Shown: piece after piece, positions 3,678-29,557 of the stretch
Numbering within the stretch: position 1 is the first letter of the stretch
Layout: every line of letters begins with the position of its first letter
Assembly (NCBI GenBank): GCA_030652805.1
Contig: JAUSPT010000099.1
Coordinates: forward strand, 1-30,663
Source of the DNA: a bacterium
GTDB taxonomy: Bacteria > JAHJDO01
Length of the DNA: 30,663 bases
Direction of reading: 5' to 3'
Program-made: the position numbers and the translations under genes
The notes under the pieces: model-generated
Seen by the model: only the letters and a program-made list of their open reading frames with translations
What the model was told of the DNA's origin: nothing
Databases searched by the model: none

Positions 3678-4115
3678 ATGGGAAGTCGGAGAAAAGGAAG
3701 AGAACTTGTTCTGACACTGTTGTATAGAACAGAGTTTTCTAGTGATAAAAACATAAAGCGAGCTATAGAAAATATTATCAAACTTGATACTGAACAGTAT
3801 GGATCAGATACAAGAGATTTTGCAGAAGATTTATTTAGAGGAGTACTTGCAAATAGAGAGATAATCGATAAACTTCTTGAGAAATATCTGGAGCACTGGG
3901 AGATAAACAGAGTAGCAGTTATAGATAAAAGCATAATGAAAATGGCTATACATGAGATACTCTTTAGAAATGATATTCCTGATGTCGTATCCATTAATGA
4001 AGCAGTGGAGTTGGCCAAGAAGTATAGTACAGAGAAGAGCGGAGGATTTGTTAATGGAATTCTTGACAGGATAAGAAAAGATAAAAGGGGAATATTGAAA
4101 TCTATAAATGAATAG
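3678..4115 (+). CDS. nusB: Transcription antitermination protein NusB
   Basis: NusB is a small all-helical RNA-binding protein. With NusE (ribosomal protein S10) it binds boxA RNA and helps RNA polymerase resist termination in rRNA operons. The N-terminal GSRRKGRELVLTLLY matches the NusB start, and the middle and C-terminal helices (VIDKSIMKMAIHEIL, NEAVELAKKYSTEKS, FVNGILDRI) are diagnostic. The length of 145 residues is usual. It follows ribH with no spacer and overlaps the next gene by 8 bases, so it is co-translated within the flavin operon. Confidence 0.96.
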   Translation: MGSRRKGRELVLTLLYRTEFSSDKNIKRAIENIIKLDTEQYGSDTRDFAEDLFRGVLANREIIDKLLEKYLEHWEINRVAVIDKSIMKMAIHEILFRNDIPDVVSINEAVELAKKYSTEKSGGFVNGILDRIRKDKRGILKSINE

Positions 4116-5895
4116 AAACAAAATTGAGGAAATAGCTCTCTGGCTCAGCACAGGATTTCTGGCATTTCTGGTTCTATTTAGACCATTAGTCTCAGGAATA
4201 AGCTATCCATGGTCAAATACTGTATGTCAGCTTACTATTTTGCTAATTTTAGCAGTTTGGATTACTAAGTGTATCTGGCTGGGTAGATTTAGCCTGGTAA
4301 AAACATCCCTATATATTCCAATATTAAGTTTTGCGTTTTTTGTCATTTTATCCTGTATATACTCAGTTAATCTTAATGCCAGTTTAAAACAAGCCTATAT
4401 TATTGTTCCAAATATCTTATTGTGTTTTTTAGCCATAAATATTATTAGGGAAAAGAAACAAGTTTTTATAATCACGGCATGTCTGGTACTAGCAGCAACC
4501 GTTGTTTCTCTTTATGGTATTTATCAGTATTTCTGGGGGTTAAATGAGACAAGAAACTGGGTTCTTCAGCAAGACACACAATTCCCTATAGAACTTCTTT
4601 CCAGACTGGGTATAAATGAAATCTTTTCAACCTTTGTCTACCCGAACGCGTTAGCAGGATATCTTTTGTTAATACTGCCTCTTTGTATTTCCTTATTTTT
4701 TATTTCTAAATCTTTTTATAGGTTGTTACTTAGTGTGGCAGCAGCGAGTGTTGCTTTATGTCTTTATCTTACATATTCCAAGGGAGGATGGGGGATTTTT
4801 TTAATATTGGGCTTAGTGTCAATTCTGATTTTGATGTATAAGAAATTCAGGCATAAGAAGGGATTTTACATAGTTTCAATATCAGCAATAGTTGGGCTGA
4901 TCATATTCTCTGCGATATTCCTGAAAATTGTTGATAGAACTTATATGATCCATGACACGTTAGGTTCTTTTAAGGTAAGGTTAAATTACTGGAAGGCGTG
5001 TCCGGGTATGGTTAGAGATTTTCCATTTGGCAGTGGCATAGCTACATTTGGAAACATTTATCCAAAGTACAAGGTCCCACAGGCAAGAGAGGTGCAGCTT
5101 GCACACAATAGTTTTCTGCAACTCTGGACTGAGATAGGAACCCTAGGTGTGTTGAGTTTTTTATTGGTATGGATTATGTTTTTCAGGGATTGGCAAAAGA
5201 CATTTCGCATTGCGTATGTAAAGATACTAAGTGTGGGCATATATATGGGATGTATTGCTTTTTTGATCCATAGTCTTGTTGATTTTGATTTCTATGTACC
5301 AGGAATATCAATGAATGTATGGCTGTTTATAGGAATGATAGAGGCACAAAAGCACAGAGGCACAAAGATAATAAAAATTAATTCATTCTTTGCAAAAGTA
5401 GTGTCTTCTATGTTTTTGGTTTTAGTTGTATGGGTAATGTCTGTTATTTTAGTCAGACCGTCAATTGCAGAGATACATAAGGACAAAGCGATTGATTATT
5501 TACGCAGTAATAATCTTGGACCTGCTGAAGAAGAACTTGAGACAGCAATCCGGTTTGATAAGACCAATGGTCAATACTACTCCTTGCTGGGAGAGATATT
5601 AAGACAAAAAGCCAGGTTTGAGGAAGCAATAGCTCTTTATAGAAAAGCAATAGCGCACAATAAATATATGCCGCATTATCACTTTGCTTTGGGAAAACTT
5701 CTTATTGTGAGAGGCAAAGGGAATAGTGTAATGATAGAAGAAGGTATTAAAGAATTCGAAACAACCGTAGAATTATATCCTACAAAGCCTTTCTATCTAA
5801 AAAATCTTGCATATATATATAGGCTTATGGGCAGGAATGAGGAAGCGGGTAATTTGCTGCTAAAGGCAGAGCAGATGGGAAAGATGCGTGAGTAA
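4108..5895 (+). CDS. O-antigen ligase / polymerase family membrane protein with C-terminal TPR repeats
   Basis: The first ~440 residues hold about ten or more strongly hydrophobic segments. The Wzy_C/WaaL signature near the C-terminal end of the membrane part reads AHNSFLQLWTEIG, with His333 in the expected large periplasmic loop. The family transfers or polymerises undecaprenyl-linked glycans, for example O-antigen onto lipid A core. Residues from about 460 to 595 are soluble and contain tetratricopeptide-like helical repeats (AEEELETAIRFD, YSLLGEILRQKARFEEAIALYRKAI, LKNLAYIYRLMGRNEEA), which may bind partners. Ligase plus TPR is a recurrent architecture in candidate phyla and Deltaproteobacteria. 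It overlaps nusB and pepP by 8 bases each. The exact glycan substrate cannot be told from sequence. Confidence 0.82.
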   Translation: MNRNKIEEIALWLSTGFLAFLVLFRPLVSGISYPWSNTVCQLTILLILAVWITKCIWLGRFSLVKTSLYIPILSFAFFVILSCIYSVNLNASLKQAYIIVPNILLCFLAINIIREKKQVFIITACLVLAATVVSLYGIYQYFWGLNETRNWVLQQDTQFPIELLSRLGINEIFSTFVYPNALAGYLLLILPLCISLFFISKSFYRLLLSVAAASVALCLYLTYSKGGWGIFLILGLVSILILMYKKFRHKKGFYIVSISAIVGLIIFSAIFLKIVDRTYMIHDTLGSFKVRLNYWKACPGMVRDFPFGSGIATFGNIYPKYKVPQAREVQLAHNSFLQLWTEIGTLGVLSFLLVWIMFFRDWQKTFRIAYVKILSVGIYMGCIAFLIHSLVDFDFYVPGISMNVWLFIGMIEAQKHRGTKIIKINSFFAKVVSSMFLVLVVWVMSVILVRPSIAEIHKDKAIDYLRSNNLGPAEEELETAIRFDKTNGQYYSLLGEILRQKARFEEAIALYRKAIAHNKYMPHYHFALGKLLIVRGKGNSVMIEEGIKEFETTVELYPTKPFYLKNLAYIYRLMGRNEEAGNLLLKAEQMGKMRE

Positions 5896-6967
5896 GATGT
5901 ACAAAGAGCGTATTAAAAAGCTAAGAAAGGAGTTGGGTAAGTCAGGACTCAAATTTTTTATTGTTACAAACATACGGAATTGTCTTTATTTAACAGGCTT
6001 TACCGGCTCTGAAGGTGTGGTACTCATTACTCCAACATTGGTTTGTCTTATTGTTGATTTCCGGTATATAGAACAGGCGCAGGAGGAGGCAAAGAATACA
6101 AAAGTCATTAAAAGAGAAGGGGCTTTGCACTTGTTGTTACGAGATGTATTGAAGAAATATAAAAATGAAGAAATTGCTTTTGAGTCAGATTCCATAACCT
6201 TTAAAAAGCATAAAGAGATAAAAAAATCATTACCACAGAATCGTCTTGTGCCAACATTGAATGTAGTGGAAGGGTTGAGGGCTATTAAATATGGAGGAGA
6301 GATCGCTTTAATAGAAAAGGCAGTAAGAATCAGTGATGAAGTGTTTAAACATATCTGTGATTTTATTAAACATGGTAGAAGTGAGATCAATGTTGCAGCA
6401 GAGATAGAACATGTGGCAAAAAGAAAATGGTCCTCTTGTGTGGGGTTTGATACAATAGTACTTTCAGGAGAGAGAACATCACTTCCTCATGGGGCGCCGT
6501 CGCAGGATTTATTAAAAAACGGCATTGTTCTTTTGGACTTTGGGTGTGTGTTTTCAGGTTATAACTCAGATATCACAAGAACTATATTTCTCGGGAAAGC
6601 AACAGCGAAGCAAAAAGAAATCTACAATATTGTTTTGGAAGCACAGAAAATTGCTATTAAGAGCGTAAGCCCTGGAGTAAAAGTATCCTGTATAGATAAA
6701 GTAGCGCGTGATTATATAGCTGATAAAGGATATAGCGAATACTTTGGACATAGCACTGGTCATGGTGTTGGATTGGATGTACACGAGCTTCCTGCTATAT
6801 CAAGTAAAAGCGATGAAGTATTACAGTCAGGCATGATTTTTACAATTGAGCCTGGCATATACATTCCGGGATGGGGCGGCATCAGGATAGAAGATATGGT
6901 GGAGGTAACAGACAATGGATGTAAAATTATAACAAAGTCATCAAAAGAAATTATAGAGATTTTGTAA
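5888..6967 (+). CDS. pepP: Xaa-Pro aminopeptidase (M24B metallopeptidase)
   Basis: This cytosolic dinuclear-metal aminopeptidase removes an N-terminal residue that precedes proline. The N-terminal creatinase-like domain (about 1-125, NIRNCLYLTGFTGSEG) is followed by the pita-bread fold. All five metal ligands are visible: Asp217, Asp228 (DFGCVFSGYNSDITRT), His292 (GHSTGHGVGLDVHE), Glu321 (FTIEPGIY) and Glu335 (IRIEDMVEV). The length of 359 fits the short YqhT-type subfamily. The start given is GTG, 8 bases inside the ligase gene; an ATG at 5897 is an alternative. In many genomes this gene sits directly before efp. Here the island separates them, and the last ~101 bases of this gene recur as a diverged copy at 16485-16585. 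Confidence 0.94.
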   Translation: MSKMYKERIKKLRKELGKSGLKFFIVTNIRNCLYLTGFTGSEGVVLITPTLVCLIVDFRYIEQAQEEAKNTKVIKREGALHLLLRDVLKKYKNEEIAFESDSITFKKHKEIKKSLPQNRLVPTLNVVEGLRAIKYGGEIALIEKAVRISDEVFKHICDFIKHGRSEINVAAEIEHVAKRKWSSCVGFDTIVLSGERTSLPHGAPSQDLLKNGIVLLDFGCVFSGYNSDITRTIFLGKATAKQKEIYNIVLEAQKIAIKSVSPGVKVSCIDKVARDYIADKGYSEYFGHSTGHGVGLDVHELPAISSKSDEVLQSGMIFTIEPGIYIPGWGGIRIEDMVEVTDNGCKIITKSSKEIIEIL

Positions 6968-7076: not shown

Positions 7077-10000
7077 ATGACTAACGATTCGACATTTATT
7101 ACAAACACTAAAACCAAAAAGCTGAAGAGTCGGCTTATTGAATTGATTCAAAAAAGCGATGAACTGAAGTTTCTGGTCGGTTTTTTCTATTTTTCAGGAA
7201 TCAAAGAACTGTATAAAGGACTAAAAGAAAATCCGGATGTTAATATCAAAGTTTTAGTTGGCTTGAATGTTGACAAAACCAATTTAGGATTGGTTGAATT
7301 TGAAGATAATGACAGCGAGATATCCGACGAAGAAAAAAGCTATAGATTCATTCAGTCAGTAAAGAAATCTTTAAATTCAGAAGATTTTGATACAGAAGAA
7401 TTTTATCGGCAGGTCAGATATTTTATTTCGCTTATCAAAGAAGATAGATTAATAATCAGGAAAACATATAATCCAAATCACGCTAAAATTTACCTGTTTA
7501 AATTAGAAGAGGGTCAGGTTGGCAAAAGAAATCTATTCATCACCGGAAGCAGTAATTTAACAAAAGCCGGCGTTTCCGCACAACAGGAATTCAATGTTGA
7601 AATAAGCGATTACGGATTTAAAGAGGCTGATGATTATTTTGACGTTTTGTGGAATGATGCAGTAAAAATAACAGATGATGATGTCACTAAAAGAAAATTA
7701 ATAGAAGTTATTGAAAAAGAATCCATTATTAAAGATATCACTCCATTTGAAGCCTTTGTTTTGGTCTTAAAAACCTATCTTGATTCATTTGAGAAAAAAG
7801 AAATAAGCGAGTCTCTTATAAAAACTATGGAAGACAACGGTTATATTCCATACGAATACCAGCTGGACGCAATTGGGCAGGCGCTTGCTATTATTGAGAA
7901 AGATAACGGAGTAATTATTGCGGATGTTGTTGGCTTGGGAAAATCCGTAATTGCTTCTGCTGTTGCAAAAGAATTAAAAAAGCGCGGTATTATTATCTGT
8001 CCTCCGGGCATTATTGGAGATAAGAACAAAAATTCAGGATGGAAAAAGTATGCTGAGGAGTTTGGACTGCGTGATTGGGAAGTGCGTTCGTCAGGAGATA
8101 TGGAAAATACTGCAGCATTTATCAAAAAGACAAAAGATATTGAAGTTGTAATTATTGATGAAGCCCACCGTTTTAGAAATCAGGATACAAAGGATTATGA
8201 ATATCTAAAAAACATCTGCCGCAATAAAATCGTAATCCTGCTTACTGCTACTCCGTTCAACAATAAACCCGGTGATATTTTATCTTTATTGAATCTGTTT
8301 ATTACACCCAAAAAGTCGTCAATTACGCTGGAAAACAATCTTGTAGATAGATTTAAGGCGTTCAAAGGAGTTTTTGACCGTCTCGGCTTTATAAAAAAAT
8401 ATTGGAATTCCGCAAATGAATATAAAAGAAGAAAGGCAGAGGCTTACTATGAAGCACTCTTTGAAGAAAAGCCTATTGATTTAAGAAAGGTAAAACAACG
8501 CTCACATTATCTGGCCGGACAAATTCGGGATGTAATAGAGCCTGTTACTATTCGGCGAAATCGCCTTGATCTGCAAAATAATCCTCTTTACAAAAATGAG
8601 GTCAAAGATTTGTCCAAAACAAAAGACCCTGAGGAGTGGTTCTTTGAATTATCAAAAAGTCAGTCAGAATTTTACGACAAAGTTATCAGCGATTATTTTG
8701 GAGACCCTGATGATGGAGGACAGTTCAATGGTGCCATTTATCGGCCTTTTGAATATGAAGTGGAGCAAAAAAGAATTACCAGTGAAAAATTAAATGAACA
8801 AGAGAATTTCCAATTTATCCAACAGCGTAATTTGTACGATTTTATGCGCCGCTTGGTTGTAAAACGATTTGAAAGCTCTTTCGGTTCTTTTAAGAGAAGT
8901 ATAGAGAACTTTAAAAGAATCACAGAGATCGTATTGGACTTCATTAATAAAACCAATAAATATATTCTTGATCGCTCTCTTTTAGAAAAAATATATACCT
9001 TGAATCTAGAACAGATTGAAGAATATTTAAAAGACTATTCTGAAAAAATAAGGAGCGGAGATTATCCAAAGAATCATAAAGTATACAAGGTGGATAAGTT
9101 TAAATATAAAGATAATTTCATTGCGCATATTAAAGCGGACCTGATTCTTTTTGACAATATTCTGAAAGAGCTGTCAGCATTGGATTTGGTAAAGGATGAT
9201 CCTAAAACAGACTGCATGTTAAAGCATGTTAAAAATATCTTAAAACGGAAACCGAAGGAGGACGAACCTAGAAGAAAAATAATTATTTTTTCCGAATATG
9301 TTGATACAGTTAAGTATCTTGAGCCAACACTAAAAAAGCATTTTGGCGAAAGAATGCTTTTTGTAACAGGAGATTTATCCTCTAATAAAATTTCTCAGAT
9401 AAACAAAAATTTTGACGCTTCATTTGATGGACAGGAAGACAAATACGATATCCTGCTCTCTTCTGACAGAATATCGGAAGGGTTCAATTTGAACCGAGCC
9501 GGCATGGTAATTAATTATGATATTCCATGGAATCCTGTGCGGGTGATTCAGCGTGTCGGACGCATTAACCGCATCAGCAAAAAGGTGTTCAATAATCTTT
9601 ACATTGTCAATTTCTTTCCAACTGAGAAAGGCGCAGAACTGGTCAAATCACGTGAGATCGCAGCCAACAAAATGTTTTTGATCCATTCCACTTTAGGGGA
9701 AGACTCCAAGATATTTGATATTGACGAAGAACCCTCGCCATCAAGGCTGTTCCAAAAGATCCAGCAAAATCCGGATAAATTGGAAGAGGAAAGCTTTTAC
9801 ACAAAAGCCCAGAAAAAATTCATGGAGATTAAAAAAGAAAACCCCAAGTTAATTGAGGAATTAAAAGATTATCCGACAAGAATAAAAACCGCTAAAAAAT
9901 TCAAGGAGAACGAGCTTCTGGTTTTCTTCAAAAAAGGCCGCTTATATATTCGCGCCATAAAGCAGAATGAAGATAAAAGCAATCAGGTATATCAAGTTTC

Positions 10001-10442
10001 TTTTGAAGAAGCGTTTGACAAAATTCTATGCGAGAAAAACGAGCCAAAACTCTCTCTTAGCGGTTCTTTCTGGGAATCCTATGTAAAAATCAAAAAATTC
10101 AAGGAATACAGGCATATTCCCGCAAGTGATCAAAGCATAGAACAAAAAGCATTGATTAACTTAGGAAGTTTTATTTCAAAGCCATGGGAATCATTTCTGC
10201 CTCATCTGGATTTTTTAAGAACATTGCGTGAGGACATAATAGATTACGGCACGCTTGCCGATTACACTCTACGCCGCATTTCTAATTTAGGAAGTTCAAG
10301 CGAAACTAAGCAAAAGGAAATTCTTCTAAATATCGTTGCTTTAAAACATGAGCTTGGAGAGGATTATCTGCAAAAAGAAAAAGAAAGGCAAAAAGATCTA
10401 ACAAAAGAAATAATTATTGCCATTGAAAATCAAAAGCTATGA
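7077..10442 (+). CDS. PLD-nuclease / SNF2-type superfamily 2 helicase (restriction-like subunit)
   Basis: A 1121-residue protein with two recognisable parts. The N-terminal ~180 residues form a phospholipase-D-type nuclease half-site: His135-x-Lys137 (NHAKIYLF) followed by GSSNLT at 157-162. The Asp of a full HKD motif is replaced (Lys142), as in several PLD-like restriction nucleases. An SF2 helicase follows: Walker A GLGKS at 286-290, DEAH at 361-364, LLTATPFNN as motif III, IIIFSEYVDT starting the second RecA lobe, SEGFNLNRA, and QRVGR at 825-829 (arginine finger). The C-terminal ~250 residues are unassigned. Its last 4 bases overlap the start of the methylase gene, so the two probably act together as a DNA-translocating nuclease and its protective methylase. 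It could also serve as a stand-alone defence effector. Confidence 0.85.
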   Translation: MTNDSTFITNTKTKKLKSRLIELIQKSDELKFLVGFFYFSGIKELYKGLKENPDVNIKVLVGLNVDKTNLGLVEFEDNDSEISDEEKSYRFIQSVKKSLNSEDFDTEEFYRQVRYFISLIKEDRLIIRKTYNPNHAKIYLFKLEEGQVGKRNLFITGSSNLTKAGVSAQQEFNVEISDYGFKEADDYFDVLWNDAVKITDDDVTKRKLIEVIEKESIIKDITPFEAFVLVLKTYLDSFEKKEISESLIKTMEDNGYIPYEYQLDAIGQALAIIEKDNGVIIADVVGLGKSVIASAVAKELKKRGIIICPPGIIGDKNKNSGWKKYAEEFGLRDWEVRSSGDMENTAAFIKKTKDIEVVIIDEAHRFRNQDTKDYEYLKNICRNKIVILLTATPFNNKPGDILSLLNLFITPKKSSITLENNLVDRFKAFKGVFDRLGFIKKYWNSANEYKRRKAEAYYEALFEEKPIDLRKVKQRSHYLAGQIRDVIEPVTIRRNRLDLQNNPLYKNEVKDLSKTKDPEEWFFELSKSQSEFYDKVISDYFGDPDDGGQFNGAIYRPFEYEVEQKRITSEKLNEQENFQFIQQRNLYDFMRRLVVKRFESSFGSFKRSIENFKRITEIVLDFINKTNKYILDRSLLEKIYTLNLEQIEEYLKDYSEKIRSGDYPKNHKVYKVDKFKYKDNFIAHIKADLILFDNILKELSALDLVKDDPKTDCMLKHVKNILKRKPKEDEPRRKIIIFSEYVDTVKYLEPTLKKHFGERMLFVTGDLSSNKISQINKNFDASFDGQEDKYDILLSSDRISEGFNLNRAGMVINYDIPWNPVRVIQRVGRINRISKKVFNNLYIVNFFPTEKGAELVKSREIAANKMFLIHSTLGEDSKIFDIDEEPSPSRLFQKIQQNPDKLEEESFYTKAQKKFMEIKKENPKLIEELKDYPTRIKTAKKFKENELLVFFKKGRLYIRAIKQNEDKSNQVYQVSFEEAFDKILCEKNEPKLSLSGSFWESYVKIKKFKEYRHIPASDQSIEQKALINLGSFISKPWESFLPHLDFLRTLREDIIDYGTLADYTLRRISNLGSSSETKQKEILLNIVALKHELGEDYLQKEKERQKDLTKEIIIAIENQKL

Positions 10443-13400
10443 GCAGGGATATTTTAGACAGCATAATTAATGATTTTGACTCTGAAAAATTCGCCAGATT
10501 TTTTCGTGAAAAGAACAGATCCGCTTTTGCGCCAAGAAAAGAAGAACTGCTTCATTATGATGATGAAGATTTTAAAAACGGCTTGAAGCTTGGCGAGATT
10601 GCGTTTACGGATGCAAAATTGTTTGTATGCACTTTTCAGGTATCCAATCCGCTCTCTGAAAGAAGCGGCAAAAAGGCGCAGTATGAGAAAGCCAAGAAGA
10701 TTCTAAAAATCCATCGGGAATATAGCGCAGGCATTTTTATTTTCTATGATGCAAACGGCAATTTCCGTTTTTCTTTGATTTACGATATCCCTCATGGAAA
10801 TAAAAGAGATTGGAGCAATTTCCGCAGATTTACTTATTTTGTCAGCAAGGAATTTACAAACAAAACATTTCTCAAGCAGATTGGCGAAAGCGACTTCTCG
10901 TCATTGGAAAAAATCAAGGAAGCGTTTAGTGTTGAGAAGGTTACCAAAGAGTTTTATGAAGATATTGCCAACTGGTATTTTTGGGCGGTTAAGCATAGTA
11001 CTTTTCCGAAAGACGCTGAGGTGGAGAACGGCAGAAACATAGCAGTCATTCGCCTTATTACCAGAATTATTTTTATCTGGTTTATGCGAGAAAAAGAAAA
11101 TTTGGTCCCAAATGATTTATTTAAAGAGAATAAGATCAAAACAATTCTTAAAGATATATCATCAGACGTTTCAACTTACTATAAAGCAGTTTTGCAGAAC
11201 CTATTCTTTGCCACATTAAGTACCAAAAAAAATGAAAGAGATTTTCGCAATGAAAAAAGATTCCAAGGGAAAAATAAAGATTTTGGAAATCAGTATGTGT
11301 ATCGTTATCACGGTCTTTTTAGTTCACCGGACGAAATTAAAACTTACTTTGGAAAAATTCCCTTTTTAAATGGTGGTCTTTTTGAATGTTTAGATGATGG
11401 AATAAATAATTATTATGTTGACGGTTTTACTGAGAGAAAAGAATATCAACCAATAATTCCGAATTTCCTTTTTTTTGGCGGGGAGCAAAAAGCAGATCTC
11501 AATACCGCTTACGGCACAAAAAACAAAACCTACAAAGTTAGAGGGCTTTTAAACATTCTTTCATCGTTTAATTTTACTATTGATGAGAACTCCCCGGATG
11601 ATCAGGACATAGCTCTTGACCCCGAGCTTTTGGGTAGAGTCTTTGAAAATCTTTTGGCAAGTTTTAATCCGGAAACATCCACCACTGCTCGTAAAGCTAC
11701 CGGCAGTTATTACACCCCGAGAGAAATCGTTGATTATATGGTATCAGAGTCGCTTAAGGCGTATTTTAAAACGCATCTTTCGGCTATTTCCGATTTAGAT
11801 AAAAAAATAGAGCAGCTTTTTTCAACAGGAAGCGAAGAAAATCCTTTTGACAAATCGGAGTCAAAAAAGATCGTAGAACTGATTGAAAGTGTCAGAATTG
11901 TTGATCCTGCGGTTGGTTCCGGCGCGTTTCCAATGGGCGCGCTTAATAAATTGGTATTTATCTTAAATAAAGTTGATCCGGGTAATGAGCTTTGGAAACA
12001 TGCCCAGCTTTCGGCGGCGGATACAATACCCGATCCGCGCATCAAACAAGATACCAAAAACCGTATTGAAGAATTTTTCAAAGGTAAAAACGCGGATTAC
12101 GGACGAAAACTGTACTTGATCCAAAAATGTATTTATGGAGTGGATATTCAACAGATTGCGGTAGAGATCGCCAAACTGCGTTTTTTTATTTCGCTTTTGG
12201 TAGATGAAAAAATTGACAGAAATCATCCTGATGGGAATTGGGGCATTGAACCATTGCCGAATCTTGATTTTAAAATTATGCAGGGCAATAGCCTGCTTGA
12301 AGAGTATGAGGGCGTAAAACTTTTTGATGAAAAATTTATTACTAGTATTGATTTTGATAAACAAAAACTCATTGGATCAATAAAACAGAAACAGTCAGAA
12401 TTGCAAAAAGAATATTTAGATCTTCACGCAAAAAATAAACTTACAAAAATTAAGCAGGCAGAATTAAATGAAGAGTTAAAAAAACTTGATAAACAATTGA
12501 AAGGTTTAAACAAACAGGACAATAAAACTGAAGAAGCCACGGGGCTCTTTGACGTCCAAAATGAGGCAAAACAAAAAAGAGAGATGTTGAAGCGACTTCA
12601 CAAAGAATTTTTTGAAACTAATGAGAAAGAAACAAAGGAGAAAATTAAAAAACAGATTGAGAAAATTGGGTGGGATCTGATTGAAGCCACGCTTAAAGAG
12701 CAGGACAAAACATCTGAACTTAAAAAAATAGAGCAATTCAAAAAATCAAACACAAAACCATTCTTTCTCTGGAAACTTCATTTTGCAGATGTTTTTGAAA
12801 ATGGTGGTTTTGATATTGTAATTGCCAATCCGCCGTATATTGGTGAAAAAGGTCATAAAGAAATTTTCGACCCAGTTCATAGCGGAAATCTTAAGAAATA
12901 TTATCAAGGCCAGATGGATCTATTTTATTTCTTTTTTCACCTTGCCCTAAATCTTGGGAAACAGGATTCTAGTGTTGCTTTTATAACCACAAATTATTAT
13001 CCGACCGCTACCGGTGCACGGAATCTGCGGATAGACCTTAGTAATCGTGCGACGATTAAACAACTCATTAATTTTGGCGAGTTAAAGATTTTTGAATCCG
13101 CCCTTGGTCAGCACAATATGATCACGATTTTTCAAAAAGAAAACAATAAAAACGCTATAGCTAAAACTCGTATTACAAAAAGGAAGGGGGATTCTAGCTC
13201 GGAGATACTACAGGCAATTGTCGAAGGAACAGATACACAAACAGATTATTTCCAAGTAGCTCAAGGCGATTTATATGATGGAGAAGAATACTACATTAGA
13301 TTGGCTGGTAATTCTATGGAGAGTAATGATCCGACTCAGTCTACTATTAACAAAATTAAGCAGCAAGGCGTATTATTGTCGATGTTGTGCAATGTAAACG

Positions 13401-14227
13401 TGGGGCTATATACAGGGGCTGATAAGGTAAGCAATAGTTACATTCAAAAGTATTCGTTAAAGATGGATAAGAATGAAGGTATTTTTATTATAACCAGGGA
13501 AGAGATGAAGATGTTGAACCTGAATAGTCTTGAACGATCTAAAATTAGTTCTTTTTACAAAAACTCTGATATTTTCAGGTGGCATACCAAACAAAACCCC
13601 GATTTATTTTTAATCAATATATCTTATCCTGAGAACAAAGACATAGACCTCAAAAAAATTCCCAATATATTTAGACACGTTTCAAAATACGAGAAAATTT
13701 TACGGCACAGAAAGTCTAACGACAATGGACTACGTGCGGTAATCGCGGCTGGTTATTGGTGGTCGTTTACAATCAGGCAAATTGATTTCAATAAGCCTAA
13801 AATAGTTGTTCCTCAAAGAAGTCCACGAAACACCTTTGGTTATAATGAAGTCCCTTGGTATGCAAGTGCTGATGTTTATTTTATTACCGAAAAAGATAAA
13901 TCAGTTTCATTAAAATACATTTTAGCTCTTCTTAATTCAAAACTCTATTATCTTTGGCTTTATAATCGGGGCAAAAGGAAAGGGGAAACACTAGAACTTT
14001 ATCAGCAGCCACTTTCTGAAATTCCAATTAAAAAAATATCTCTTGATGATCAAAAATCATTTATTGAAATCGTTGATAAAATTTTGTTAATTACCAAAGC
14101 TATCAATTATTTAGAAAATCCCGAAAAAAAAGAAGAAGTCAAAGAATACGAACGTCAGATTGATCAAATGGTTTATAAGTTGTATGGATTGACGGAAGAG
14201 GAAGTTGCTTTAGTTGAGGCAGTATGA
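10439..14227 (+). CDS. Eco57I/TaqI-type DNA adenine methyltransferase (modification/specificity subunit)
   Basis: A 1262-residue class-I SAM methylase. The N-terminal ~400 residues have no motif I can name. The catalytic domain starts near YYTPREIVDYM; motif I is DPAVGSGAF (489-497) and motif IV is NPPY (797-800), the N6-adenine signature. A long Lys/Glu-rich insertion, probably coiled coil, lies between them (about 640-780). The C-terminal ~400 residues have TaqI_C-like target-recognition features (YWWSFTIRQIDFNKPKIVVPQ, LALLNSKLYYLWLY). Size and order recall type IIG or type I-ISP enzymes, but the helicase and nuclease reside in the preceding gene, with which it shares an ATGA overlap. Motif I has Val where Cys is commoner in the family. 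No PD-(D/E)xK site is certain in the N-terminus. Confidence 0.87.
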   Translation: MSRDILDSIINDFDSEKFARFFREKNRSAFAPRKEELLHYDDEDFKNGLKLGEIAFTDAKLFVCTFQVSNPLSERSGKKAQYEKAKKILKIHREYSAGIFIFYDANGNFRFSLIYDIPHGNKRDWSNFRRFTYFVSKEFTNKTFLKQIGESDFSSLEKIKEAFSVEKVTKEFYEDIANWYFWAVKHSTFPKDAEVENGRNIAVIRLITRIIFIWFMREKENLVPNDLFKENKIKTILKDISSDVSTYYKAVLQNLFFATLSTKKNERDFRNEKRFQGKNKDFGNQYVYRYHGLFSSPDEIKTYFGKIPFLNGGLFECLDDGINNYYVDGFTERKEYQPIIPNFLFFGGEQKADLNTAYGTKNKTYKVRGLLNILSSFNFTIDENSPDDQDIALDPELLGRVFENLLASFNPETSTTARKATGSYYTPREIVDYMVSESLKAYFKTHLSAISDLDKKIEQLFSTGSEENPFDKSESKKIVELIESVRIVDPAVGSGAFPMGALNKLVFILNKVDPGNELWKHAQLSAADTIPDPRIKQDTKNRIEEFFKGKNADYGRKLYLIQKCIYGVDIQQIAVEIAKLRFFISLLVDEKIDRNHPDGNWGIEPLPNLDFKIMQGNSLLEEYEGVKLFDEKFITSIDFDKQKLIGSIKQKQSELQKEYLDLHAKNKLTKIKQAELNEELKKLDKQLKGLNKQDNKTEEATGLFDVQNEAKQKREMLKRLHKEFFETNEKETKEKIKKQIEKIGWDLIEATLKEQDKTSELKKIEQFKKSNTKPFFLWKLHFADVFENGGFDIVIANPPYIGEKGHKEIFDPVHSGNLKKYYQGQMDLFYFFFHLALNLGKQDSSVAFITTNYYPTATGARNLRIDLSNRATIKQLINFGELKIFESALGQHNMITIFQKENNKNAIAKTRITKRKGDSSSEILQAIVEGTDTQTDYFQVAQGDLYDGEEYYIRLAGNSMESNDPTQSTINKIKQQGVLLSMLCNVNVGLYTGADKVSNSYIQKYSLKMDKNEGIFIITREEMKMLNLNSLERSKISSFYKNSDIFRWHTKQNPDLFLINISYPENKDIDLKKIPNIFRHVSKYEKILRHRKSNDNGLRAVIAAGYWWSFTIRQIDFNKPKIVVPQRSPRNTFGYNEVPWYASADVYFITEKDKSVSLKYILALLNSKLYYLWLYNRGKRKGETLELYQQPLSEIPIKKISLDDQKSFIEIVDKILLITKAINYLENPEKKEEVKEYERQIDQMVYKLYGLTEEEVALVEAV

Positions 14228-24209: not shown

Positions 24210-26093
24210 ATGCAAGAGAAATATACGGAATTGCTTAAGAAAAAATGCACAGAAACAAGTTATAGAAAGCTAATGGCATTGGATAATGCGAAACTTTATG
24301 ATTTTGTTGGAAAGTATGCAGAGCTTTGTAATCCTGATTCGGTTTTTATTGGCGATGGTTCTGATGAAGATGCTCAGTATATAAGGAATAAGGTATTAGA
24401 AACCGAAGAGGAAAGAAAACTCGCTGTTCAGGGACATACAATTCATTACGACGGCTACAATGATCAGGCGCGTGATAAGGCGCAAACTAAATATCTTCTT
24501 TCTGAGGGAATGGAGCTCGGGGTCAGTCTCAACACAATAGACAGAGAAGAAGGGATACGAGAAGTCCATGAATATCTAAAAAATAGTATGGCTGGAAAGG
24601 AGATGCTGGTTTTGTTTTTCTGTCTTGGTCCAACTAATTCCGAATTCTCCATTCCATGTGTTCAGATAACTGATTCCAGTTATGTTGCGCATTCAGAATA
24701 TATTCTTTATAGGAGAGGATACAGACAGTTTGAGAGAATCGGCAATTCTGAGGATTTCTTCAGGATTATGCATAGTGCCGGTGCTCTGGAAAACATGGTA
24801 AGCAAGGATGTAGATAAACGCAGAGTATATATAGATCTTGAGGAGAACATTGTATATAGCACAAATACCCAATACGCAGGTAACACAGTTGGACTTAAAA
24901 AGCTCTCTCTAAGACTTGCTATTCACAAGGCATCAGGAGGAGATTGGCTTGCTGAACACATGTTAGTTATGGGGGTGCATGGTCCCGATGGAAGAGTTAC
25001 CTATTTCACAGGAGCTTATCCAAGCGCCTGCGGTAAAACATCAACTGCTATGATGAGAGGGGAGAGCATTGTAGGTGATGATATAGCATATTTAAGACAT
25101 AAAAAGGGTAAAGTCTATGCAGTAAATGTTGAGAGCGGAATATTTGGAATTATTCAGAATGTTAATGCAAAGGATGATCCTTTGATATGGGAAGTTTTAA
25201 CCTCTCCTAATGAAGTGATCTTCTCTAATGTTCTTGTAACAGAAGACAAAACTCCTTTTTGGCTTGGAGACGGTAGAGAGATACCTGAGAAAGGGATTAA
25301 CCATTCAGGGGAATGGGTAAAAGGGAAAAAAGATTCAAAAGGCGCTGAGATTACACATTCTCATAAAAATGCAAGATATACAGTCAAGCTTCGTTCTCTT
25401 AAGAATTTAGATCCTAAACTGGATGATGCTCAGGGAGCAGAAACAAAAGGGATAATCTACGGCGGAAGAGATTCAAGCACATGGCCTCCTGTTCAGCAGT
25501 CTTTTGATTGGGCGCACGGAGTAATAACAATGGGAGCGTCTCTGGAATCAGAGACTACATCCGCAACATTAGGAAAGGAAGGCGTCAGAGAGTTTAATCC
25601 TATGTCTAATCTTGATTTTGTTTCCGTTTCGCTCGGAAGATATATTAGCAATCATCTTAAATTTGCAGATTCCCTGGATTCTCCGCCTGCGATTTTTGCA
25701 GCCAATTACTTTCTTAAAGACAGTAAAACCGCTGAATATGTGACAGGTATGCAGGATAAGCGTGTATGGATTAAATGGATGGAACTGCGGGTTAATAATG
25801 ATGTGGATGCAATTAAAACTCCCACAGGTTATATCCCGAAATATGAGGACCTTAAAAAATTGTTCAAACAGGTTCTTGATACCGATTACGCAGAAGAAGA
25901 CTACATAAAGCAGTTCACTTTGAGAATACCTGAAAATCTTCAAAAAATTGAGAGAATCACAGAGATATATAAAACAAAGGTCTCAGATACCCCGGATATT
26001 CTTTTCAGCATTCTTGAAGAGCAGAAGAAACGGCTGAAATCTGCGCAGGAAAAATACGGGGATTATATAGCACCAGAGCTTTTCTGCAAGTAA
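24210..26093 (+). CDS. pckG: Phosphoenolpyruvate carboxykinase (GTP type)
   Basis: This enzyme interconverts oxaloacetate and phosphoenolpyruvate with GTP/GDP and links the TCA cycle to gluconeogenesis. The 627-residue length fits the GTP family. The kinase-1a loop PSACGKT is at 271-277, with the family's active-site Cys274 inside it. Other signatures are GDDIAYLRHKKGKVYAVN (metal-binding region), ESGIFGI, and GGRDSSTWPPVQQSFDWAHG. Compared with better-known members a few residues differ (GKTST for GKTN-L), so the protein belongs to a divergent branch. Its start is 14 bases after lon, probably in the same unit. Its stop codon is formed by the first bases of the attC-like repeat A. Confidence 0.93.
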   Translation: MQEKYTELLKKKCTETSYRKLMALDNAKLYDFVGKYAELCNPDSVFIGDGSDEDAQYIRNKVLETEEERKLAVQGHTIHYDGYNDQARDKAQTKYLLSEGMELGVSLNTIDREEGIREVHEYLKNSMAGKEMLVLFFCLGPTNSEFSIPCVQITDSSYVAHSEYILYRRGYRQFERIGNSEDFFRIMHSAGALENMVSKDVDKRRVYIDLEENIVYSTNTQYAGNTVGLKKLSLRLAIHKASGGDWLAEHMLVMGVHGPDGRVTYFTGAYPSACGKTSTAMMRGESIVGDDIAYLRHKKGKVYAVNVESGIFGIIQNVNAKDDPLIWEVLTSPNEVIFSNVLVTEDKTPFWLGDGREIPEKGINHSGEWVKGKKDSKGAEITHSHKNARYTVKLRSLKNLDPKLDDAQGAETKGIIYGGRDSSTWPPVQQSFDWAHGVITMGASLESETTSATLGKEGVREFNPMSNLDFVSVSLGRYISNHLKFADSLDSPPAIFAANYFLKDSKTAEYVTGMQDKRVWIKWMELRVNNDVDAIKTPTGYIPKYEDLKKLFKQVLDTDYAEEDYIKQFTLRIPENLQKIERITEIYKTKVSDTPDILFSILEEQKKRLKSAQEKYGDYIAPELFCK

Positions 26094-26132
26094 CGCTAAA
26101 GTAGCAGTAAACGTTCAATAATAATGTTCGGC
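26090..26132 (+). repeat. attC-like repeat, copy A (right half only)
   Basis: Begins GTAACGCTAAAGTAG, where the TAA is the pckG stop, and ends GTTCGGC (26126-26132), one base from the integron core GTTAGGC. About 38 of its 42 bases match copy B. No matching left inverse core (GCCGAAC) was found. Might be the array's first recombination site, or simply a member of a dispersed repeat family. Confidence 0.5.
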
Positions 26133-26150
26133 ATAGAAAGGAAGGCTATA

Positions 26151-26588
26151 ATGGCAGTTATGAAGAAGGTAAAATCCCGTGAGTTATTCATGGGAAAGTT
26201 AAGTCATAGTGGTGATTTGTTGGAAGAAATCACTGACATTTGTCGAAAGAAAAATATTCAGCTTGGACGCATCGAAGCACTCGGAGCCGTTCAGAAGGCC
26301 CGTCTTGCATTTTATAATCAGCAAACGCGTGAATACCAGTTCTTTATAATAGATCAACCGCTAGAAATCACTAAACTTGTGGGGAATATCTCGCTTAAAG
26401 ATGGAACCCCAATTGTCCATGCACATGTTACTCTGGCAGACAAAACAGGAAAAACCTATGGTGGGCATCTTGCGCCAGGAACAGTGATTTTCGCATGTGA
26501 ATTTATACTGGAAGTCTTTGAAGGTCCGATTTTTGAAAGAGGATTTGACAAAGAAACCGGACTGCCTTTGTGGGCAATGTCGGAATAA
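26151..26588 (+). CDS. PPC/DUF296 domain protein
   Basis: A 145-residue single-domain protein of the PPC (plant and prokaryote conserved) family, found in bacteria as trimeric proteins and in plants joined to AT-hooks. The fold signatures are SRELFMGKLSHSGDLLEEI, RIEALGAVQKARLAFY, GTPIVHAHVTLADK with HxH, and GGHLAPGTVIFACEFILE. The histidines form a possible metal site. The ATG at 26151 is preferred because GGAAGG precedes it; an ATG at 26124 lies within repeat A. Bacterial function is not established (DNA-binding or metal-dependent roles have been proposed). It stands alone between repeats A and B and ends just before a terminator. Confidence 0.83.
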   Translation: MAVMKKVKSRELFMGKLSHSGDLLEEITDICRKKNIQLGRIEALGAVQKARLAFYNQQTREYQFFIIDQPLEITKLVGNISLKDGTPIVHAHVTLADKTGKTYGGHLAPGTVIFACEFILEVFEGPIFERGFDKETGLPLWAMSE

Positions 26589-26590
26589 GG

Positions 26591-26617
26591 GAAAAAGGAG
26601 ACAGCGACCTTTTTTTT
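26591..26617 (+). terminator. Rho-independent terminator after the PPC gene
   Basis: AAAAAGG (26592-26598) pairs perfectly with CCTTTTT (26608-26614) around a nine-base loop, followed by further T residues to 26617. It starts 3 bases after the stop codon at 26588. Confidence 0.65.
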
Positions 26618-26625
26618 AAAACGGG

Positions 26626-26659
26626 GTCAAATCTTTATCATTGACAAAGCATGCCACAT
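26626..26659 (+). repeat. Short repeat D, copy 1, with promoter-like elements
   Basis: Starts GTCAAATCTTTATCATTGAC and matches 28 of 32 bases (26627-26658) of the copy at 28043-28074. It includes TTGACA (26641-26646), and TATTTT (26663-26668) lies 16 bases downstream, so it could bring a promoter to the next gene. It sits where the left half of repeat B would be expected. Confidence 0.6.
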
Positions 26660-26694
26660 ATCTATTTTTATTGAGATTTTAAGCAATTTGAGCT

Positions 26695-26741
26695 ATGGTA
26701 ACGCTAAAGTAGAAGTGACTGTTCAATAATTAATGTTATGC
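26695..26741 (+). repeat. attC-like repeat, copy B (right part)
   Basis: ATGGTAACGC and following bases through GTTCAATAAT to GTTATGC (26735-26741). GTTATGC is the exact reverse complement of GCATAAC at 27565-27571, which lies at the stop codon of the gene that starts after this repeat. This is the pairing integron cassettes show between their beginning and the left core of their own attC. Confidence 0.55.
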
Positions 26742-26754
26742 TTGAGGTGAGAAG

Positions 26755-27570
26755 ATGATCGTAGCAGGCTGGATTGTATGGGTTTTGTCTCTGTCATTTT
26801 TCCTTGGTTTCTTATTTTTCAACAGGAGGTGCGCCAAGGAGAAGAAGCCAATTCATGCAGCTCTTCATGTCCAATTGATCTTCTTGCTACTGTCCATCGT
26901 GATTTTCGCATTCGCTTCGTTTAACAGATTGCATCTATTGTGGGTTGTGCCTTCCAGTCTCATCCTTGGTTGGGTAGTTGCATTTGGAATTCTACCATTA
27001 CCTGTGATAGGCACTGCTCTCAGGGATATTCTGTTGCTATTCGCACACGTTTTCTTTTTGGGTACGGATTGGGAATTAGGGGGATACCCCTGGGAGATTG
27101 CTGTCGCGCGGACCGTTGCTTCTCGTGCATCCATGCAGCATGACAAATCACCTGAGGAATTCGAATCAGCCATCAAGGAGCGTCAAGAGCTGCTGTTTGG
27201 ATACTACCTGTATTACAAGGGCATCAAATTCCTGCATTCTGCTGGCTTCCATGACAACACAACTATGGATAGCACAAACTTTCATTACTCGCAAATCAAG
27301 GAACGTAACACTAAGTCTGTTCTGGAGGCGAAGGAACTTCTTGCTATGGTCAAACGTGGCGAAAAAGATGTGACGCACTTGAGTGAATTCGTTTTCCCAC
27401 CGATTCACGGGCCAGGCCTAGATGAGATGACAGGACGCGCAAAGGCTTTGGTAAGAGCATATGAGAGGGTTTTCCCCGGGAGACCAAGTGACCGGGAACT
27501 TACTGAAGAAGAATATTTTGCTCTTAATGACGCTGCGATGTCTGAATGGCCTGTAGATGACAAAGCATAA
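26755..27570 (+). CDS. Hypothetical four-TM membrane protein (cassette-like gene)
   Basis: Function not recognised. Four hydrophobic segments fill the first ~105 residues (about 1-23, 35-56, 60-80 and 84-105, the latter two with PSSLILGWVVAFGILPLP). A ~165-residue hydrophilic domain rich in charged residues follows (PEEFESAIKERQELLFGYYL, KGIKFLHSAGFHDNT, VLEAKELLAMVKRGEKD), ending YFALNDAAMSEWPVDDKA. A ribosome site GAGGTGAG precedes the ATG. The gene is visibly richer in G and C than the core genes, suggesting separate origin. It is bounded by repeats B and C; its stop lies inside the left core GCATAAC of repeat C. No homologue or partner is known to me. Confidence 0.72.
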   Translation: MIVAGWIVWVLSLSFFLGFLFFNRRCAKEKKPIHAALHVQLIFLLLSIVIFAFASFNRLHLLWVVPSSLILGWVVAFGILPLPVIGTALRDILLLFAHVFFLGTDWELGGYPWEIAVARTVASRASMQHDKSPEEFESAIKERQELLFGYYLYYKGIKFLHSAGFHDNTTMDSTNFHYSQIKERNTKSVLEAKELLAMVKRGEKDVTHLSEFVFPPIHGPGLDEMTGRAKALVRAYERVFPGRPSDRELTEEEYFALNDAAMSEWPVDDKA

Positions 27571-27636
27571 CAATGGCATGAAGACGAACTGGTAACATTA
27601 AAAAAAAGTGACTGTTCAATGATTAATGTTTGATGC
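27565..27636 (+). repeat. attC-like repeat, copy C (most complete, 72 bp)
   Basis: Left core GCATAAC followed by AATGGCATGAAGAC, centre GGTAACATTAA, then GTGACTGTTCAATG and right core GTTTGATGC (27628-27636). AACATTAA and TTAATGTT form a perfect 8-bp hairpin arm in the middle. GTTTGATGC is one base from GTTAGATGC, a usual right core in integron cassettes. The preceding stop codon lies within the left core, as is common in cassettes. Confidence 0.55.
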
Positions 27637-27662
27637 ACGATGTCTATGAGGAGTAATTAGTC

Positions 27663-28004
27663 ATGGGAATACTTGATCACGCTAAAGAATTGGCTGAGCT
27701 CATCAAGAAGTATAATGACCAAGATCTCTACCAACGCATTGTCGACCTGCGAGATGAAATTTTTGCTCTGCGTGAGAAAAATCTAAATTTGAAGGAAGAA
27801 CTCAGAGTCATCAAGGCGGACAGAGATGTAGAAGCGCAGTTGACGAAAGAACGTAATGTATACTTCAGGGTCGATCCCAACGGGACTCGTAGCGGTCCCT
27901 ATTGCATGATGTGTTGGGATTCAGATCGCAAACTTGTGAACCTGACGCAGGAAGATGGGGGATACACTTGGTGTCTAAGGTGCATTAAAGAATCAAAAAA
28001 ATAG
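27663..28004 (+). CDS. Coiled-coil protein with C-terminal four-cysteine zinc ribbon
   Basis: Function unknown. The 113-residue product begins with an amphipathic helix and coiled coil (AKELAELIKKYNDQDLYQRI, VDLRDEIFALREKNLNLKEE to about residue 60). It ends with a zinc-ribbon-like module with Cys81-x2-Cys84 (CMMC) and Cys104-x2-Cys107 (CLRC). YFRVDPNGTRSGPYCMMCWD resembles small ribbon proteins met in mobile or accessory loci. A ribosome site GAGGAG lies about 10 bases before the ATG. The gene stands alone between repeat C and a left core GCATCGAAC 3 bases after its stop, hence a candidate cassette. It could bind nucleic acid or another protein. Confidence 0.72.
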   Translation: MGILDHAKELAELIKKYNDQDLYQRIVDLRDEIFALREKNLNLKEELRVIKADRDVEAQLTKERNVYFRVDPNGTRSGPYCMMCWDSDRKLVNLTQEDGGYTWCLRCIKESKK

Positions 28005-28006
28005 CA

Positions 28007-28074
28007 GCATCGAACAACCACATGCAAAAAAGTAAAAAACGATCAAATCTTTATTATTAACAAGGCAGGCCACA
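28007..28074 (+). repeat. Left half of an attC-like site followed by repeat D copy 2
   Basis: GCATCGAAC (28007-28015) complements the right core GTTTGATGC of repeat C at 8 of 9 positions and is one base from GCATCTAAC of known attC sites. The usual right half is missing. Instead TCAAATCTTTATTATTAAC (from 28043) begins the second copy of repeat D. The same replacement is seen at 26626, so D may insert at or recombine with these sites. Confidence 0.5.
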
Positions 28075-28099
28075 AACACACTACGATTAGGATAACAGC

Positions 28100-29557
28100 A
28101 TGGCTCTTTTAACCAAATCAAAATACCTTGCAGGGCTTCAGTGTTCAAAACTCTTATGGATGCTTGTCAAAGCGAAGGATAGAATTCCTGCGCCGGCTGA
28201 AGATGCTCAATTCAGAATGGATGCCGGAACTGAAGTCGGTATTCTGGCTAAACAATTATTTCCCGAAGGCATTGATATGCCGACTGATGATTTCATGCGG
28301 AATATTTATTTGACAAAGGATAGTCTGTTGGAAAATGTGCCGCTTTTTGAAGCAGGAATCATGGCTAATAATTGCTATTCAAGAATTGACGTTCTCAAGC
28401 CAAATGATGACGGGAGCTTTGATATTATTGAAGTCAAATCAGGAACAAAGGTTAAAGAAGAGAATGTTCACGATGTTTCTTTTCAAAAACATTGCTGTGA
28501 AATGGCAGGGCTAAAGATTGCGAAATGCTGTTTGTGCTTTATCAATAATCAATACGTCAGGCAGGGCGATATCAATGTGAGGGAACTGTTCTCCATTCAG
28601 GATATAAGTATGGAGGTTGCTGAAGCTCAGCAGGGTATTCAGGAGAGAATCGCTAAGATGGCTGATGCCATAAGATTGAGCAGATGCCCTTTGGTTTTGA
28701 TAGGCAGACACTGCGATTCTCCCTATACCTGCAACCTAAAAGATGAATGCTGGGAATTTCTGCCTGAAAATAATATTTTCACACTCTGCGGAGGCGGGGG
28801 AAAAAGCGCTGAGCTCTTCAATAACGGCGTACACAGCATAGCGGATATTCCTGACGATTTTAGACTTACAGATAAGCAGGATATCCAGAAGAAGTGCGGG
28901 CAAACAAGGGAATGCCATGTTAACACTTTCGGAATAAAGCAGTTTCTTGATACATTGAATTATCCTCTCTATTATCTGGATTTCGAGACCTTTTCTCCGG
29001 CAGTTCCCGAATATGATAATTCCAGGCCATATCAGAAGATTCCGTTTCAGTATTCTCTCCATATTCAGCAGAAAGATAACAAAACAGAGCATTTTGAATT
29101 TCTAGCGGAAGGAAGCAAAGACCCAAGACCTGCATTATTAAAAAATCTCAAAGGAGTTCTTGGAACGAAGAGCAGTATTGTTGTTTATAATCAATCATTT
29201 GAGAAAGGCGTTTTAGATGAGTTAGCAAGAAATTTTCCCGGATATCAGGATTGGGTCAATGAAATACTTCCAAGAATAGTAGATCTGCTGATTCCTTTCA
29301 GAAACTTTTACTACTATAATCCATCTCAGCAAGGCAGTGCCTCTATAAAAAAAGTCCTTCCGGCGATTACGGGAGAAAATTACGGAGAAATGGAGATCGC
29401 AACCGGCGAAGATGCAAGTATGCAATTCTTTAAAAGCCACATTAAAAGTAAATCAAACAATAAAGAAGAAATAAGAAAAAACCTGTTAAAATACTGCTGT
29501 TTGGATACTGAGGGAATGGTGTTGATCGTCAGCGAATTGAAAAAGTTTGTGAATTAG
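28100..29557 (+). CDS. DUF2779 protein: Cas4/RecB-like nuclease fused to DEDD-type exonuclease
   Basis: A 485-residue protein with two nuclease-like modules. The N-terminal module resembles Cas4/AddB: Asp97 and Glu111-Val-Lys113 (IEVKSGT) form a PD-(D/E)xK centre. Cys15 (LQCSKLLW) with Cys205, Cys211 and Cys217 could hold the [4Fe-4S] staple typical of those enzymes. The C-terminal DUF2779 part has RNase-H-like exonuclease motifs: Asp294-x-Glu296 (YLDFETF), a second motif around YNQSFEKGVL and YCCLDTEGM (Tyr-x3-Asp). No cas genes or recombination partners lie nearby, so it seems a stand-alone DNA or RNA processing enzyme, maybe linked to repair or defence. It sits alone between repeat D copy 2 and degenerate repeat E. 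Confidence 0.85.
   Translation: MALLTKSKYLAGLQCSKLLWMLVKAKDRIPAPAEDAQFRMDAGTEVGILAKQLFPEGIDMPTDDFMRNIYLTKDSLLENVPLFEAGIMANNCYSRIDVLKPNDDGSFDIIEVKSGTKVKEENVHDVSFQKHCCEMAGLKIAKCCLCFINNQYVRQGDINVRELFSIQDISMEVAEAQQGIQERIAKMADAIRLSRCPLVLIGRHCDSPYTCNLKDECWEFLPENNIFTLCGGGGKSAELFNNGVHSIADIPDDFRLTDKQDIQKKCGQTRECHVNTFGIKQFLDTLNYPLYYLDFETFSPAVPEYDNSRPYQKIPFQYSLHIQQKDNKTEHFEFLAEGSKDPRPALLKNLKGVLGTKSSIVVYNQSFEKGVLDELARNFPGYQDWVNEILPRIVDLLIPFRNFYYYNPSQQGSASIKKVLPAITGENYGEMEIATGEDASMQFFKSHIKSKSNNKEEIRKNLLKYCCLDTEGMVLIVSELKKFVN

Follow-up and report, generated by a model that had tools for sequence, protein, structure and literature searches.

What is the repeat that follows pckG in this bacterial genome, and what are the genes that lie behind its copies? 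The window, by which we mean the whole stretch of 30,663 nucleotides that was analysed, holds three copies of the repeat (A, B and C), each of which ends at G↓TT, where the arrow marks the crossover. The copies lie at 26090-26126, 26698-26735 and 27591-27628; a preliminary description had placed them correctly and had read the shared ~42-nt repeat as the attC site of integron cassettes. For copy B the repeat core is 26698-26735, and the homologous DNA extends back to ~26663, revealing a longer element that we call E. The features of the region, all on the forward strand, are as follows.

26090-26126, forward: copy A, a right-hand fragment of E (delta-E) joined to the 3' terminus of pckG
26126/26127, forward: crossover G↓TT of copy A
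26097-28086, forward: interval that varies between relatives, bounded by the conserved pckG and DUF2779 genes
26124-26588, forward: PCC-domain (PF03479) gene, a 154-aa frame, inside the variable interval
26617-26658, forward: dispersed non-coding repeat D3, copy 1, immediately 5' of E copy B
26663-26735, forward: copy B, a full E (promoter motif and attI-like site) as delimited by a 42-copy alignment, ending at G↓TT
26671-26699, forward: predicted promoter within copy B, with -35 TTGAGA (26671-26676), 17 nt and -10 TATGGT (26694-26699)
26736-27628, forward: cassette 2, which starts TTATGC and has the G of copy C as its last base, with a 9-mer complement between start and end
26755-27570, forward: ORF (271 aa) of cassette 2, without matches in Pfam or PADLOC
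27563-27571, forward: R'' of cassette 2, AAGCATAAC, complementary to GTTATGCTT at 26735
27591-27628, forward: copy C, delta-E (the right 38 nt of E) joined to an attC left arm
27629-28015, forward: cassette 3 up to its R'', starting at copy C, with the 3' half of its attC absent
27663-28004, forward: ORF (113 aa) of cassette 3, without matches in Pfam or PADLOC
28007-28015, forward: R'' of cassette 3, GCATCGAAC, which pairs with GTTTGATGC at 27628
28033-28074, forward: repeat D3, copy 2, in the place expected for the rest of the cassette 3 attC

The start/end complementarity that had been claimed for the cassettes was borne out, as cassettes 2 and 3 each have an R'' that is complementary to their own start. 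For cassette 2 this is the exact 9-mer complement between GTTATGCTT and AAGCATAAC, which overlaps the end of the 271-aa ORF at its stop codon. For cassette 3 the pairing between GTTTGATGC and GCATCGAAC, the latter just 3' of the stop of the 113-aa ORF, covers eight of nine positions with the mismatch being a G-T wobble. The GC content of the cassette 2 ORF is 46% versus 39.5% for pckG and 37% for the window. The PCC-domain gene is not established as a cassette, since no complement of the copy A start, GTTCGGC, was found between it and copy B.

The ends of these two cassettes were also analyzed. Cassette 2 ends with R'' and the beginning of an attC left arm, after which come the rightmost 38 nt of E (copy C). 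When this end is folded as an attC the bottom strand gives -2.8 kcal/mol with a z of -0.1, which is no better than background. The cassette 2 end is probably best described as a hybrid of an attC arm and E, that is, a cassette end of the delta-attI type. Cassettes ending in a truncated attI are known in class 1 and class 2 integrons, and those tested are functional (PMC12901181). Cassette 2 is like them in ending in a truncated attI-like copy instead of a complete attC, but differs in that it retains the left attC arm and in that the parent attI-like element is dispersed over the chromosome. For cassette 3 no R' GTT was found upstream of the next gene, and its attC is truncated. Because the window has no intact attC, the proposed CALIN reading (clustered attC sites without intI) is a poor fit to it. 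The two D3 copies, one adjoining E copy B and the other the truncated end of cassette 3, are 81% identical, and REP-like sequences are also present 5' of many E copies in relatives. A search of Rfam returned no match anywhere in the window.

The anatomy of E was defined from an alignment of 42 copies, of which 40 come from five genomes of the genus to which the window belongs, and the other two from elsewhere. Similarity sets in abruptly ~75 nt before the GTT and ends abruptly at the GTT, with flanks that are random, so that E is a discrete ~73-nt element composed of -35 TTGAGR, 17 nt, -10 TAnnnT, ~35 nt and G↓TTRRRY. Its best-conserved parts are TTGA, the 17-nt spacer, TAnnnT and the 17 nt GTTCAATRATTAATGTT. 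The arrangement TTGA-N19..22-TAnnnT occurs in 23 of the 42 copies versus 1.9% of random 60-nt windows; within the window region alone the count of promoter-like matches is at chance level. In 38 copies an ORF start lies no more than 60 nt from the GTT, and the median gene start is ~18 nt downstream of G↓TT. The tails mostly read GTT-R-(G/T)-R-Y, which is near GTTRRRY, with a slight bias at tail position 4 that stems from a GTTA-biased search pattern. The core, AATRATTAATG↓TTRRRY, is similar to the published minimal delta-attI2 site AATAAAATGTTRRRY (PMC12901181). As judged by sequence, E appears to carry a cassette-promoter (Pc) motif, and with it a predicted promoter, upstream of an attI-like site.

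A search for more copies, as had been suggested, showed that E is widespread in the window genome (G000; 2.0 Mb, 102 contigs, 95.6% complete), in which 8 contigs carry at least 11 copies in total, with at least eight of these in addition to copies A to C (on contigs C7, C32, C34 with two, C50, C70, C73 and C87). All five genus genomes, whose records include the MAGs CSMAG_1431, CSMAG_1337 and CSMAG_2459, have 4-11 copies each by pattern search, numbers that are minima, versus 0-2 matches to the reversed pattern. These five represent the entire family, order and phylum in the genome set that was searched. A stricter pattern applied to 84,980 species genomes yielded two genuine cases outside the genus, namely L107 from bacterium RS_15_20 and L100 on a contig within a Candidatus Tenebribacter mawsonii MAG. 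Pattern matches in L099 (Bacilli) and L102 (Bacteroidetes), where similarity is confined to the pattern, were dismissed as chance, as were three viral matches, and no E was found in plasmids, phages or viral contigs. At L107 (5950-6345) the apparent tRNA gene directly before E, recognized by eye, is split by a ~330-nt intron-like insert.

Gene cassettes with an R'' complementary to their own start are present behind E. Specifically, an exact 8-mer complement of the E tail occurs 150-2000 nt downstream of 10 of the 42 copies versus 0.76 expected, and an exact 9-mer complement downstream of 6 versus 0.17 expected, while no 8-mer complement occurs upstream of any copy. This agrees with the integron rule invoked in the preliminary description, by which a cassette supplies its right core from its own start. 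The complements are located at, or just past, the end of the first downstream gene, and for ~16 of the 42 copies the ORF that follows has an R'' at its end. Several of the R''-bearing loci continue into a canonical attC with bulged L''/L' stems, such as L036, L090, L091, L096 and L107 where the arms pair around one extrahelical base (by eye in L096). The attC of L036, TTCTAACAAGACGGTTGGAGG...CCTCAGACGCACGTTATAA, is an example. At L100, E is followed by two linked cassettes, with the second starting GTTATACG and ending CGTATAAC. A loosely parameterised comparison of L''/L' stems with shuffles gave p<=0.05 in 4 of 23 candidates. The downstream attCs at L078, L083 and L089 appear decayed, a recognisable R'' is absent downstream of ~26 of the 42 copies, and some copies precede ordinary genes of the URO-D family (L040) or ClpP-like type (L037). 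The genes behind E are diverse and include a methyltransferase, a PHP domain protein, a GNAT acetyltransferase, an Mrr-like nuclease and many without a family.

These results bear directly on the possibility that each repeat serves as the attC of the cassette before it and that the arrays are CALINs. The R''/R' complementarity at 26735/27563 and 27628/28007 is compatible with this reading, as is the fact that cassette 2 does terminate in copy C. However, the true attCs downstream of E have a different sequence each time and are unrelated to E, an R'' partner is present upstream of only 2 of the 42 copies versus 3.5 expected, and the copy C site folds no better than background. Furthermore, E contains a promoter motif, and what precedes it is not a cassette but pckG or, at L107, a gene that resembles a tRNA. 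The attC reading is thus largely refuted and we regard it as very unlikely. The genome-wide scatter of the repeat, which the preliminary description had itself counted against an attC, is indeed observed, yet the scattered copies precede cassettes. What had been called an attC is more plausibly the right end of an attI-like element situated 5' of cassettes that have unrelated attCs.

Comparison of strains for cassette change, another check that had been proposed, was informative. Among species of the genus, orthologous E copies exhibit left-flank homology up to the GTT followed by differing genes. For example, L080 and L092 are homologous from -999 to +3, and L040 and L093 from -2265 to +7, with different cassettes beyond. 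The L089 and L078 pair also breaks at the GTT on the left, with G004 having one cassette and G002 two other cassettes, after which a common right flank, CACTTTCTTTTG..., restarts ~3-8 nt after the last GTT. In addition, a single cassette gene recurs, with 95.5% identity across 558 aligned nt, behind two diverged E copies in G000 and G001 whose flanks are unrelated. At the pckG locus the homology with G001 ends at 26096, 3 nt beyond the pckG stop, and restarts at 28087. The content between pckG and the DUF2779 gene is wholly different in G001, which has its own E followed by a lipoprotein-like gene, and also in G004, which has no E there. Insertion of cassettes at E would account for these changes and is well supported by the comparative evidence. 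The DUF2779 protein at the edge of this interval (28100-29557) has a weak N-terminal match to a Cas4-like nuclease (PADLOC).

The same comparisons address whether E could be a regulon promoter or leader, or a small non-autonomous transposable element, with complementarities that are coincidental. A dispersed element located 5' of genes, equipped with a promoter motif, often adjoined by REP-like repeats and in many copies lacking a visible attC could look like this. We consider it very improbable given the cassette-complement statistics, the different cassettes held by orthologous E copies and the occurrence of the same cassette at different E copies.

We conclude that E is probably an attI-like site for cassette insertion, equipped with a predicted promoter of its own (a 'Pc-attI' module), that is dispersed and detached from an integrase. 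The downstream complements, the cassette change at orthologous copies and the common cassette at unrelated copies all indicate that E behaves like an attI, and its sequence is that expected of an attI-type site receiving cassettes at G↓TTRRRY. In the proposed mechanism, circular cassettes with ordinary, diverse attCs would be inserted at G↓TT, where E ends on the right, by an IntI-type recombinase that acts in trans or acted in the past, and the promoter within E would then drive transcription of the inserted gene. Promoter activity is predicted here from the motif, and IntI is the presumed recombinase. In the window, cassette 2 would have entered at E copy B, and copy C, the right end of E, would have taken the place of part of its attC, with cassette 3 behind. 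Perhaps E spreads via such delta-attI ends of cassettes.

A different view is that cassettes inserted genome-wide at generic attG or secondary sites (GWT), with E being a dispersed repeat that contains a good secondary site. IntI-mediated insertion at such sites is known (Loot et al., 2024, cited in PMC11023631; PMC10127599), and E loci resemble these sites in having cassettes at chromosomal positions without intI, with no integrase nearby. This view is unlikely, since 42 sites have a conserved stretch of ~73 nt that stops precisely at G↓TT and contains a promoter motif in the position it would have in an integron platform, whereas generic attG sites are short degenerate motifs that have just a few bases in common. 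As a long conserved element, E falls outside the attG class.

We also searched for an integrase that could act on E. With the IntI profile TIGR02249, none of the seven E-bearing genomes (the five genus genomes plus G005 and G006) exceeded the cut-off; the earlier statement that the window contains no integron integrase was right. As a control, 7 of 124 Cloacimonadota genomes were positive, indicating that the search is sensitive enough. At the Cloacimonadota IntI loci E was not found, and a chain search for attC arrays, with linked cassettes on a Kovacikia plasmid as the shape control, gave no convincing array. As the seven E-bearing genomes are all drafts (MAGs), a contig with an integrase may have been lost, although loss from all seven is unlikely. 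The sole tyrosine recombinase in the stretches around E copies is in L077 (5780-6664), and it is the best IntI-profile match in the genus at 108.9 bits, which is under the cut-off. Given this score and its distance of several kb from the E copy on that contig, we take it to be unrelated to E. IntI is distinguished by an extra patch-III domain, and no IntI with this domain was found beside an array.

In the window genome the partial IntI-profile matches, the sole recombinases that the profile picks up there, skip model region ~185-243 and look Xer-like without the IntI insert. This would be in keeping with XerC/XerD as the recombinase and E as a dif-like site, as would the right end of E, TTAATGTTA, which to our eye recalls a XerD arm. 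However, the exchange point would fall inside this XerD-like arm, and to our knowledge folded attC sites are substrates of IntI in all known cases. We therefore hold a Xer-based system to be highly unlikely and retain an IntI-type recombinase in the attI-like reading of E.

E can be compared with known systems in several respects. It is like the attI and Pc of class 1 and class 2 integrons in having a predicted promoter upstream, a G↓TTRRRY crossover, cassettes directly downstream and a core close to the delta-attI2 minimum. A described attI adjoins intI and is typically present once per integron (PMC9024848, PMC9668308), whereas a genome has many scattered copies of E, none of them found beside intI. 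The E loci are thus not integrons as defined by the presence of intI. The CALIN label fits only in part. E-locus cassettes occur without an integrase, as do those of CALINs, but they have a conserved attI-like/promoter element in front and are mostly single. Two or more clustered attCs without intI are present at L100; the window has one hybrid and one truncated site. IntegronFinder 2.0 by default requires two attC sites, a threshold that single cassettes fall below (PMC9024848).

There is perhaps an even chance that these genomes contain a distributed integron, with some ten promoter-bearing attI-like platforms across the chromosome, each with one or two exchangeable cassettes, and with no resident integrase. 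Cassette traffic in such a system would depend on a recombinase that is supplied in trans or not yet recognised. Sites of the attI type are poorly described beyond class 1, and the standard tool does not search for them (PMC9024848), so that integrase-less platforms would be missed or recorded as stray attC sites. In the open-access literature searched, we found no account of dispersed, promoter-bearing, integrase-less attI-like elements. If E is functional, then each cassette would be behind its own copy of a promoter instead of queueing in one array behind one promoter, which would change the view of cassette expression and turnover. A functional E would also offer genomes without IntI a testable route into cassette exchange, and it predicts a recombinase that acts in trans or has gone unrecognised.

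Other mobile or defence-like genes were observed in these regions. After pckG in G001 (L129, reverse strand) there is a toxin-antitoxin-like pair, named by eye as nucleotidyltransferase/HEPN-like, between repeated 3' ends of the preceding host gene (~5880-5950 and 7130-7201). A HicAB-like pair, also named by eye, is located in L078 (G002) between ~3850-4000 and ~4480-4600, the duplicated 3' end of a host gene. The gene-end copies flanking these modules are 73 to ~110 bp long, as if insertion had duplicated the gene end. Genes resembling a REP-associated (Y1-type) transposase were recognized by eye in the pckG hotspot of G004 (L128, 6782-7282, reverse strand) and directly 3' of an attC in G000 (L034, from ~8940). 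Finally, positions 7077-14227 of the window contain a two-gene defence-like unit that codes for a 1121-aa PLD/SNF2 helicase with DrmD/BrxH-like PADLOC matches and for a 1262-aa protein resembling a type IIG restriction-methyltransferase.
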